Source of the DNA: Candidatus Poribacteria bacterium | Lineage (GTDB): Bacteria > Poribacteria > WGA-4E > WGA-3G | Direction: 5' to 3' | Assembly (NCBI GenBank): GCA_022827885.1 | Contig: JAJEIP010000048.1 | Span: 1 to 64,000, forward strand | Length of the DNA stretch: 64,000 bases | Shown here: positions 46,936 through 56,990 of the stretch, one piece after another | How the letters are laid out: every line of letters begins with the position of its first letter | Numbering within the stretch: position 1 is the first letter of the stretch | Made by a program: the position numbers and the translations under genes | Notes under the pieces: model-generated | The model's input: the letters and a program-made list of their open reading frames with translations, nothing else | Databases searched by the model: none | Told to the model about the DNA's origin: nothing

Positions 46936-49900
46936 TTAATCAGTTGACTCTCCACCGTCTTGAGGATTTTCATAGTAGTGTAAAACCGTTTTCAGATCGT
47001 GTAAGTGGGTTTCTACAAACCTGATACTTGTTTTCAATTCTCCGAGACAAACAGGAACTTCCACATCGTCTAAATTCATTAATTGATTTCTCAATTTCTT
47101 CATCAGTTCTACATTCCCTTGCGCCGTTCTTGCGAAGTAATCATACCTCGCTGCACATTCAGGGCAGAGAGCTAAGTACTGGGCTTCATACTCTTTGGGA
47201 AAATGATTTTTGGGAAGTTCATCATCCGCGAACTCAATTGTGAGAGCTTCTACTGCTACAAAATAATACTCACCGTCAGTCTTTTTAAACGGCATTTCTT
47301 CTTTACATATCTGGCACACCATCTCACCAGATTCATTCGTATACCACTCTTGCAGCGAAATCCTTGGGGCAATTTCGTCTTTTGTGATCCGCTTCCTTGT
47401 CTTAAGCTCCTCGTATGTTTTTGCGGGTGCATTTTCGAGTTGTTCCGAAACGCGTTTTTTTCGTAGTTCTGGATTTTTCACGGATGCTGTTGGAAAATTA
47501 GGTTTATTCTCGCTACTACGAGATTTATATTGGGAAATCACATCATCTACATTTACTTTTTCACCTTTCAACAACTGACGTAATTCGGCATATTTCTTAG
47601 CTTCTTCACTAGAATCGAAACCGAGATCCTTAGCCTGTTGATCGCGTTGGGTATATTCTTCACTCTGTTCACGAGCTGCCTTACCGAATTCAACCGCGGT
47701 GAGCCACTCGTCGCCCGCATCATGTGGATAACCTTTAGGCCACGGAAAACCTTCTTTTTCCGGAAGGTGTTCCCGCAATGCATTATGAGGACACACAAAG
47801 GACACAGAGTCTCCATCTTTCTGTGGAACCCATCGACCTTGCTTTAAAGCATGGACAAGGCTAGAGGTGCCAACACGATCAGAGTAAGATGAATTCTTAC
47901 GAAATCTGGCTTCCAGACGATTGTGAGGTTGGGAACACATCGTTTGCCATATCAATTTTGCTGTATCTAATGCTCTATCAATATCTCCAAATTTTGCCAA
48001 AAATTCTGCAGGTATACGGGAAAAAATATCAAACTTATCGATGGTGTAATCTTCATTTTTTGATGTGTATGTAATGCGTTCACCTGGGGCATCAGTGACA
48101 AGATACTTGTATTCGGGATGGTCGCGCGGAATCTGTTGCTTGGTAGCCTCCAGCTTTGTTTGGACCCCTATTGCCTCGGCAAATTTTACCAATTTTTCTA
48201 AGTCTATGCCGAATTTTTCATACTTCGATGAAATAGCCAACCTCCGCCCCTCTGAATCTTTAAGATCAAGGATCGCGTGGTAAGCTCTCAAACCCGTATT
48301 GCAATAAGGAGTATCCAGGAAAGCTTTGCGAGGGAACCACCATGTTTTTGAACCGCTTTTGTCTAATTCAAATATATAGTAGTCTTTGAACAAAATGGCC
48401 TTATCAGGTTCCTTTTCTACAAATTCAATAAACCTTTCTATATCTCTTTTGTGATGAGGTTTACGAAGTTCAATCGTTCCATTTACATATCGTTGTTGCA
48501 AAATTGCCTCAATCTCTACAACTTCATCAACTGGGCGGACGTTGATAGCTTCAAGGAAGTCTCGAGCCTTCGACCTTTGATTATCGTCTCCTCCAGATGA
48601 ATAAACCTCCTTAAGAACACGAGGGAAACGCTCATCACGTTCCACATCATCACTTGGAAAGAAGCATTTACCTCCGACTCTGTAGATGCCATCACTACAG
48701 CGAATAATCGGAAGATCAGACAGCCTATTCTTGAGGCTACTATCAGATGAATACCAATGAGTACCAGTCCACCTGAGCCGTAGAAAATCATAAAGCAATC
48801 CATAGAATACCTGATGCCATTCAACTGTTTTCTTTCCTAACCAATCTGCTATCATCTTCGGTTGAGCAAGCAATACACTTATAAGCTGACTCATACCCCA
48901 GTCAGGAACACGTAATGTATTTAGGAAATGATCTATAAACTGGGCGTTGGGATCTTGAACGAATCTCCCTTTTTCGTCACGGCGCTGTGAAATTTCGTCG
49001 ACCTTTAACGGTAAAGAGCAATCCCTTCCGAGAAGTATCGCCAAATCTTCATCATTTATCAAATCCGATAATTCTGCGTTTACTCGATAGAGTCTGGATG
49101 CAGGAGCGTGGTCGCCCTGTTTTACAGGTGTTAGTTTCTCATTCCGAAATTCATTAACTACAATATCACGAAATGGAACATAGAAACTCAATAGCGTGTC
49201 CTCTTCATTTGGAAGAATGGACAGGAATTGAAGCGTTAGAAGTTTTATGTTTCTGAGTATCGGGAGCGATTCCTTCATTAACTTGCAAGTTACTTCTCGA
49301 AGATGGATATTGAAGCGGTCAGTTAATGAAATCGTTTCTCGGGCAGGATTTGTTCGGTAAGGTCTGTTAAGTATAAAACGTAAACCAGTTCTCTCTCGTG
49401 TCGGGAAAAGAACGTGGAGAGTATCGTCAGCTATTGGCGAGAGTTGACCTTCGGCCCCTACTGCAAAGGCGATCTCTACCGGTTTATGCTCCTCATTTTT
49501 CCAAGTTGGAATCTTTGAGAAAACCAGATACGTATTCTCATTTTTACCGCCTTTAATTGTAGTCAATCGGGCATTACCTGCTATCTCATCTTCACGCGAG
49601 TAACACTCGGATTGATTACCTATATCCCAACGAATTTCCCGAATCTTTCGCATGAACAGCAATGTATTCATGTCCAGTTCAGTTAGGCATTTTGATATCT
49701 GCCGGTATGCTTCTTCTTTGGACATAAGTTCTTCCACGTAGTCCGGTTGCTCGGATTCATGATCGAACGGTAGAATAATACGAGTTCGGGAACGGAAAAA
49801 ATTGTCTGGATATGGATATTCTCTGACGCGATATAACCCATATATCTGAAAATGCTCGGAACCCGAAATGATAATCGGTGTTGCCGTGAAAGCAAATACA

Positions 49901-50205
49901 GATTTAAAACCGATACCGAAACGTCCTGTTTTCACAAGATCCTCGCGACTTGTACTTTTACCGAAGTAAGTAATCGCTTTGACGTTTTCCTCTTTGAAAG
50001 GTACACCGTTGTGTTCAATCACAATCTCGTCTTTTGAGAGTTTGAAAAACACTTCGGTTGCCCTATAGTCATCGGCATTCTGTAGAATTTCGTACACAAA
50101 GTGCGTAGGATCTGAGTACATAGAGACCTGCGTCTTGCGAGAGGATGTATCTTTCCCTAATTGCTCTTCGTTATGTTCTGTTATCGCTTTGTAATCGCTC
50201 GGCAT
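46936..50205 (-). CDS. Large GHKL/Hsp90-like (sacsin/NOV-like) ATPase protein B with C-terminal CxxC...CxxC finger
   Basis: FVYEILQNADDYRATEVFFKL...IEHNGVPF...GRFGIGFKSVFAFT (N, G1, G2 boxes); C-terminus CQICKEEMPF...ALCPECAARYDYF; ORF extends to 50241, internal ATG with GGAAGGAAG RBS preferred. Confidence 0.85.
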   Translation of the reverse strand: MPSDYKAITEHNEEQLGKDTSSRKTQVSMYSDPTHFVYEILQNADDYRATEVFFKLSKDEIVIEHNGVPFKEENVKAITYFGKSTSREDLVKTGRFGIGFKSVFAFTATPIIISGSEHFQIYGLYRVREYPYPDNFFRSRTRIILPFDHESEQPDYVEELMSKEEAYRQISKCLTELDMNTLLFMRKIREIRWDIGNQSECYSREDEIAGNARLTTIKGGKNENTYLVFSKIPTWKNEEHKPVEIAFAVGAEGQLSPIADDTLHVLFPTRERTGLRFILNRPYRTNPARETISLTDRFNIHLREVTCKLMKESLPILRNIKLLTLQFLSILPNEEDTLLSFYVPFRDIVVNEFRNEKLTPVKQGDHAPASRLYRVNAELSDLINDEDLAILLGRDCSLPLKVDEISQRRDEKGRFVQDPNAQFIDHFLNTLRVPDWGMSQLISVLLAQPKMIADWLGKKTVEWHQVFYGLLYDFLRLRWTGTHWYSSDSSLKNRLSDLPIIRCSDGIYRVGGKCFFPSDDVERDERFPRVLKEVYSSGGDDNQRSKARDFLEAINVRPVDEVVEIEAILQQRYVNGTIELRKPHHKRDIERFIEFVEKEPDKAILFKDYYIFELDKSGSKTWWFPRKAFLDTPYCNTGLRAYHAILDLKDSEGRRLAISSKYEKFGIDLEKLVKFAEAIGVQTKLEATKQQIPRDHPEYKYLVTDAPGERITYTSKNEDYTIDKFDIFSRIPAEFLAKFGDIDRALDTAKLIWQTMCSQPHNRLEARFRKNSSYSDRVGTSSLVHALKQGRWVPQKDGDSVSFVCPHNALREHLPEKEGFPWPKGYPHDAGDEWLTAVEFGKAAREQSEEYTQRDQQAKDLGFDSSEEAKKYAELRQLLKGEKVNVDDVISQYKSRSSENKPNFPTASVKNPELRKKRVSEQLENAPAKTYEELKTRKRITKDEIAPRISLQEWYTNESGEMVCQICKEEMPFKKTDGEYYFVAVEALTIEFADDELPKNHFPKEYEAQYLALCPECAARYDYFARTAQGNVELMKKLRNQLMNLDDVEVPVCLGELKTSIRFVETHLHDLKTVLHYYENPQDGGESTD

Positions 50206-56900: not shown

Positions 56901-56990
56901 CATCACCGCGCCACGAGTAGATGGATTCGATTTCAAGAAAACAATTTGACCGGGCACAAATTCTTGCGAAGGATTTAGAGAGTTATTCAT
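53907..56990 (-). CDS. SNF2/HepA (RapA)-type DEAH helicase
   Basis: [99 protein letters not shown]. Confidence 0.95.
   Translation of the reverse strand: [1027 protein letters not shown]

Follow-up and report, generated by a model that had tools for sequence, protein, structure and literature searches.

A SNF2 helicase and sacsin-type GHKL ATPases in a variable Poribacterial locus: a putative two-gene anti-invader system

Does a SNF2 helicase placed ahead of two very large Hsp90-like ATPases in a Poribacterial genome belong to a defence operon, and if so to one of which kind? The genes in question lie in a stretch of 64,000 nucleotides from Candidatus Poribacteria bacterium (assembly GCA_022827885.1, contig JAJEIP010000048.1, positions 1 to 64,000; hereafter the window), where a preliminary description from the sequence alone had proposed an uncharacterised defence operon. 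Our analysis indicates that the locus is probably a form, with the ATPase doubled and HEPN absent, of a two-gene anti-invader system made up of a constant SNF2 translocase and a modular sacsin-type GHKL ATPase. The three open reading frames (ORFs) were confirmed as large, co-directional minus-strand genes in the order helicase, ATPase A and ATPase B with almost no space between them, the first two being 4 nt apart and the last two overlapping by 11 nt.

The conserved helicase-ATPase unit

A scan with the Poribacterial helicases alone across 85,000 species genomes recovered 287 relatives, of which the best 80 loci were analysed; these span about 20 phyla. All 77 readable loci have a sacsin ATPase gene downstream of the helicase in the same orientation, a co-localisation far in excess of chance expectation, 75 of them being detected by script and two (L149 and L171), missed by the script owing to ORF overlap, read from the map; the contigs of the other three of the 80 stop within 0.35-0.7 kb. 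In 66 of the 75 script-detected loci no other ORF separates the ATPase from the helicase, the spacing being mostly -40 to +50 nt. Clustering of the neighbours of the 80 loci revealed no recurrent third gene, the next commonest family being present in 6 loci. As the ATPase is downstream in every readable locus and no other family extends beyond 6 loci, the unit consists of two genes, and the conserved module is a SNF2 helicase plus one sacsin ATPase with a degenerate HNH-like tail. The window shows this same arrangement, a SNF2 helicase followed by a sacsin ATPase with such a tail. The expectation that the trio would be co-localised in other genomes therefore holds for helicase and ATPase but not for the second ATPase, since the two-ATPase form is rare (the window, L147 from Thioalkalivibrio and L165 from Hydrogenedentota). 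In six loci from different phyla (L104:8901-9509, L122:6422-7231, L129:13057-13773, L132:13057-13704, L133:3935-4582 and L146:13057-13725), a protein of 202-269 aa is inserted between helicase and ATPase; the two members scanned matched nothing in Pfam.

The window helicase (53907-56990, minus strand, 1027 aa) is DrmD/RapA-like, with a SNF2 domain at approximately 56055-56627 and a Helicase_C domain at approximately 55095-55445. Its GVGKT, DEAH and QRIGRIDR motifs are invariant among 13 Poribacterial helicases, and the gene is found in 17 of 85 genomes of the phylum. Recoding of in-frame TAG codons in the Poribacterial matches was considered and rejected, as in the one case followed in detail, the G048 helicase, the alignment overruns the true stop by one codon.

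ATPase A (50231-53902, minus strand) comprises 1223 aa if read from a TTG codon, or 1210 aa from an alternative ATG at 53863 which has the better ribosome-binding site (GGAGG). Its GHKL head is located at approximately 53420-53743 and a degenerate HNH-like tail, type A, at 50252-50731. ATPase B (46936-50241, minus strand, 1101 aa) has a GHKL head at 49855-50127, a middle at approximately 47842-48594 on the same strand that is the counterpart of a hypervariable segment in its relatives, and a Cys4 HNH-like tail, type B, at 46969-47487. ATPases A and B both exceed the cut-offs of Pfam SACS (63.0 and 55.1 bits, cut-off 32.8) and NCBIfam P_loop_sacsin (88 and 69.5 bits, cut-off 50). The Bergerat-fold boxes recognised at the outset in both proteins proved robust, as the E, N and D residues of the N-box and the residues of the GxxGIGFKS lid are invariant or nearly so in the ATPase relatives. 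The two ATPases are only 23% identical over 622 residues, and therefore do not derive from a recent duplication. A predicted model of ATPase B (pLDDT 83.6, pTM 0.56) matches full-length Hsp90/TRAP1 (E ~1e-6, prob 1.00, low coverage).

The tails had been described as Cys-fingers. Cys modules are indeed present, but they are degenerate and HNH-like, have lost the catalytic residues, and resemble docking tails. The type B tail is an HNH-related Cys4 module (CQIC...YFEAVE...LCPxCAA) from which the first His is missing. The HNH pattern is better kept in type A, the fold of which matches TagI weakly (E 0.11, prob 1.00), a hint of an HNH-derived fold. We considered whether the tails could act as HNH nucleases, which seems unlikely: the first His is gone in nearly all of them, and ATPase A lacks the Asn too.

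HEPN domains, exchange of ATPase parts and mobile carriage

The domain PF18731 (HEPN_Swt1) was identified at the N-terminus of all five long helicases tested (E 8e-14 or better). An N-terminal HEPN extension occurs in 44 of the 80 helicases, or in about 46 if one split and one partial case are included, and 42 of the 44 complete extensions contain an RNxWAH-type motif (R, four residues, H). A six-frame search found no HEPN domain in the window or in the Poribacterial loci. The trio had been called self-contained, a description that is doubtful for this copy given that most relatives' helicases carry the HEPN RNase which the window copy lacks. In a helicase tree (a quick build with no bootstrap), the 15 Poribacterial rows, all HEPN-less, group in a single clade that lies within HEPN-bearing rows; this clade has lost the domain. 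HEPN presence changes at least nine times on the tree, or five times with long branches removed, both being rough numbers.

Exchange of parts is also evident in the ATPases. We compared 90 pairs of loci with helicases 75-98% identical, noting that the pairs overlap and are not independent. In 63 of them, heads and middles are distant or unrelated, at approximately 21-50% identity per 50-residue bin, and the last 100 residues are 54-62% identical. The other 27 pairs share a head, with 75% identity in the head against 48% in the middle (approximately residues 550-800; Wilcoxon p = 3e-8, descriptive only) and 57% in the tail. For example, L117 and L145 have helicases 83% and heads 84-100% identical with middles at 24-34%, and L122 and L142 have helicases 92% identical, heads and middles at 12-52% and tails at 74-82%. 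The tail type can swap too, as between L103 and L143 (helicase 95%, last 150 residues 24-34%). In the nearest relative (G049, helicase 91%), the place of ATPase A is taken by a 613-aa protein whose tail is of the same kind but whose N-terminus is unrelated. The pattern of exchange resembles that of specificity subunits of restriction systems, and we infer possible roles for head and middle in recognising a variable feature and for the tail in docking to the helicase.

The pair is carried by a conjugative Ensifer plasmid, two Rhizobium plasmids and the archaeal plasmid pMETHO01, whose record lists the helicase's partner as an HSP90-family chaperone. RefSeq plasmid annotation describes the pair as a 'helicase-related protein' and a 'hypothetical protein'. 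The helicase is also present on five IMG/VR contigs; within the stretch examined, three of these encode a sacsin partner in the same direction. The pair occurs as well in one phage record, which is unverified.

Proposed function and alternative explanations

In the two-gene system that we favour, the tail would dock the ATPase onto the helicase, while head and hypervariable middle would recognise a feature of the invader. ATP-driven opening or closing of an Hsp90-like clamp may then license the translocase, which would block or remodel the invading DNA, and HEPN, where present, would cleave RNA and so stop the infection. The two different heads of the window, A and B, would make it a heteromeric or dual-specificity version, for which the candidate effectors are DNA remodelling by the helicase or action at the RNA level with the linked Hfq-like protein discussed below. 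An anti-mobile-element function of the trio is what we infer. In its favour, the trio occupies a hotspot that holds restriction enzymes in many related genomes, and in other phyla, same-strand neighbours of the pair match Type I, III and IV restriction enzymes, Gabija, HmaC and PADLOC candidate families.

Several points weigh against this proposal. The trio of the window has no visible nuclease, its helicase being without HEPN and its ATPase tails without HNH catalytic residues. Tail docking and head recognition were deduced from sequence swapping only, and the swapping could reflect escape from phage inhibitors instead of ligand recognition. The tally of defence neighbours lacks a matched control set, and no experimental phage test was found.

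More tentatively, and with a degree of belief that falls short of even, the Hsp90/sacsin-fold ATPase may be regarded as a modular immune receptor with exchangeable heads that dock by a conserved tail on a constant SNF2(-HEPN) executor, the sacsin and HEPN gene pair perhaps being a functional, possibly evolutionary counterpart of animal sacsin. Animal sacsin likewise combines an Hsp90-like sacsin ATPase module with a HEPN domain, but in one polypeptide with further domains, whereas the bacterial ATPase and HEPN are encoded by neighbouring genes. If the proposed two-gene system is real, bacteria would offer a setting in which to probe the old puzzle of this combination, and bacterial sacsin-type ATPases would gain a mechanism-level hypothesis of receptor head and docking tail. 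A widespread two-gene defence system would also have been split by the 2023 PADLOC models into the unrelated fragments DrmD and TmtA.

These two fragments, whose matches agree with the initial assignment of the genes to defence-type families, each suggest an alternative. The first is a DISARM-like, modification-dependent restriction of DNA, in which helicase and ATPases would work with a methyltransferase-endonuclease of Type ISP/IIG whose gene is adjacent or elsewhere. DrmD is the best PADLOC match of the helicase (PDLC02623, 383 bits, full-length), but under the NCBIfam DrmD model (NF038317) the window helicase scores 311.9 bits, well below the equivalog cut-off of 610, and sacsin ATPases stand in place of the other DISARM components. 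The operon is without drmA, drmB, drmC and a methyltransferase (DrmA and DrmC were searched at the locus only, not genome-wide), and the MZB/DUF1998 domain of DrmB (PF09369) was unmatched in the whole genome, the control being positive in 8 of 14 genomes. The initial statement that no complete DISARM or BREX is present at the locus is upheld. As to the enzyme, the trio lies in a hotspot bounded by an SLBB/export gene and a PorV gene, the contents of which we examined in 22 Poribacterial loci read outward from the SLBB gene. A Type ISP/IIG enzyme occurs in 16 of these 22 hotspots, and there are seven copies elsewhere in the window's genome (L185-L191). However, such enzymes are also found in hotspots without the pair, and a methyltransferase is not a recurrent neighbour of the pair elsewhere; neighbour clustering of the 80 loci likewise gave no recurrent endonuclease or methylase. 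Further precedent for restriction comes from GHKL ATPases (MORC/paraMORC), which Iyer et al. (2008; PMC2292703) tied, together with superfamily II helicases, SNF2 helicases among them, to restriction-modification operons. Those ATPases share with ours the GHKL+S5-type fold, the adjoining SNF2 helicase and mobile, defence-like neighbourhoods (PMC2292703), but the window ATPases are sacsin by Pfam and NCBIfam and very large, and most relatives' helicases carry a HEPN RNase. On balance we consider DISARM-like restriction unlikely.

The second alternative is that the ATPases are two stand-alone defence proteins of the Tiamat type (TmtA) that merely adjoin a helicase. Tiamat is reportedly a single-gene system. 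Like it, the window proteins have a sacsin/Hsp90-type GHKL head, and both match the PADLOC TmtA model PDLC03972 (ATPase A 329.5 bits, ATPase B 185.3 bits). These matches extend over roughly 50-60% of a model 1302 positions long, covering head and middle and not the tail. Sacsin ATPases without a helicase do exist in Poribacteria (L067:8771-12526, L069:8393-12058 and L078:8031-11735). The C-terminus of the L067 orphan scores to a Type IV restriction enzyme model, so that this protein may be a stand-alone Tiamat-like nuclease, whereas the helicase-linked ATPases have a degenerate tail. With the helicase obligatory by synteny in the pair family, in every readable locus across some 20 phyla, we regard the stand-alone explanation as quite improbable. 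A housekeeping or stress role, as a RapA-like translocase in transcription or repair accompanied by a chaperone of the Hsp90 type, would suit the best structural match of the helicase by sequence (RapA) and the Hsp90/TRAP1 fold of the ATPase, but is very hard to reconcile with the patchy presence in the phylum, the empty sites, the transfer between phyla, carriage by plasmids and viruses, the rapid exchange of modules and the HEPN fusions.

Two further known arrangements resemble the pair in part. Fusions of HEPN to SWI2/SNF2 helicases, for example WQE_15321, have been reported (Anantharaman et al., 2013; PMC3710099), and by their description they too join a Swt1-type HEPN to a SNF2 helicase; the passages of PMC3710099 consulted do not mention a sacsin partner, and the window copy is without HEPN. 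Hma also combines a SNF2 helicase with an ATPase; there the ATPase HmaC is of the DUF499 AAA+ type, and HmaB is a methyltransferase (PMC8565338; PMC12839542). The window helicase matches the HmaA model (151 bits), but its ATPases match no HmaC model and there is no methylase among the operon genes. GHKL-helicase pairing (PMC2292703) and HEPN-SNF2 fusions (PMC3710099) are already known, and the helicase-sacsin pair itself looks undescribed; it was absent from the libraries and open literature searched, which mostly excluded subscription journals and bioRxiv. Its closest known counterparts are Tiamat (TmtA), the DrmD of DISARM and systems of the MORC type.

Composition and other genes of the hotspot

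The trio lies in a region of variable content, and its composition is in keeping with the preliminary description of an AT-rich locus. GC content is 0.419 for ATPase B, 0.388 for ATPase A and 0.445 for the helicase, compared to 0.507 for the left flank (3-kb windows, sd 0.016), and the AT-rich island extends to approximately 60 kb. The hotspot is flanked on the left by a conserved PorV/PorQ-family protein (45381-46394, minus strand) and on the right by a conserved SLBB/Poly_export protein (60505-61674, minus strand), between which are only the three genes, a secreted-protein gene and an Hfq-like gene, the latter two also within the island. Among the Poribacterial hotspots, the contents include the helicase-ATPase pair, Type ISP/IIG restriction enzymes, AAA/OLD-like ATPases and a PIN protein, among others, and two relatives with flanking DNA 90-95% identical to the window hold other genes in place of the window genes. 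The Type ISP/IIG-like methyltransferase-specificity proteins are approximately 1030 aa long (L059:13756-16884 and homologues) and have coupler, methylase and target-recognition domains; one hotspot copy was scanned and gave no helicase or nuclease Pfam match.

The Hfq/LSm-like protein (59898-60503, minus strand) has its Hfq fold at aa 139-195. Homologues are fused to a sacsin ATPase in four Poribacterial genomes, at the C-terminus in G048 and G042 and at the N-terminus in G054 and G074 (fusion loci L059:9036-12761, L070:7077-10703, L072:10004-13858 and L073:7003-10779). An association of the gene with the system is suggested. We rejected it as an obligatory fourth component, since it is present in many genomes' hotspots without the pair, although the fusions keep a functional link to the pair possible. 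The Hfq/LSm-like family is possibly an RNA-binding accessory of defence genes.

The secreted metallopeptidase-like protein (57020-59689, minus strand), which ends in a sorting tail of the type IX secretion system type and persists as a remnant in G053, is a passenger outside the system. Between it and the Hfq-like gene is a dispersed palindromic repeat in two copies (59816-59881), with GCGGTTNNNAAACCGCACCTAC occurring twice at 59816-59875. This sequence was found at 43 places in the genome and its reversed control at none, which confirms, on the right-hand side, the repeat elements originally said to border the locus. Tandem 42-nt repeats are also present at 42742-42891, within an ORF of 258 aa (42700-43476).

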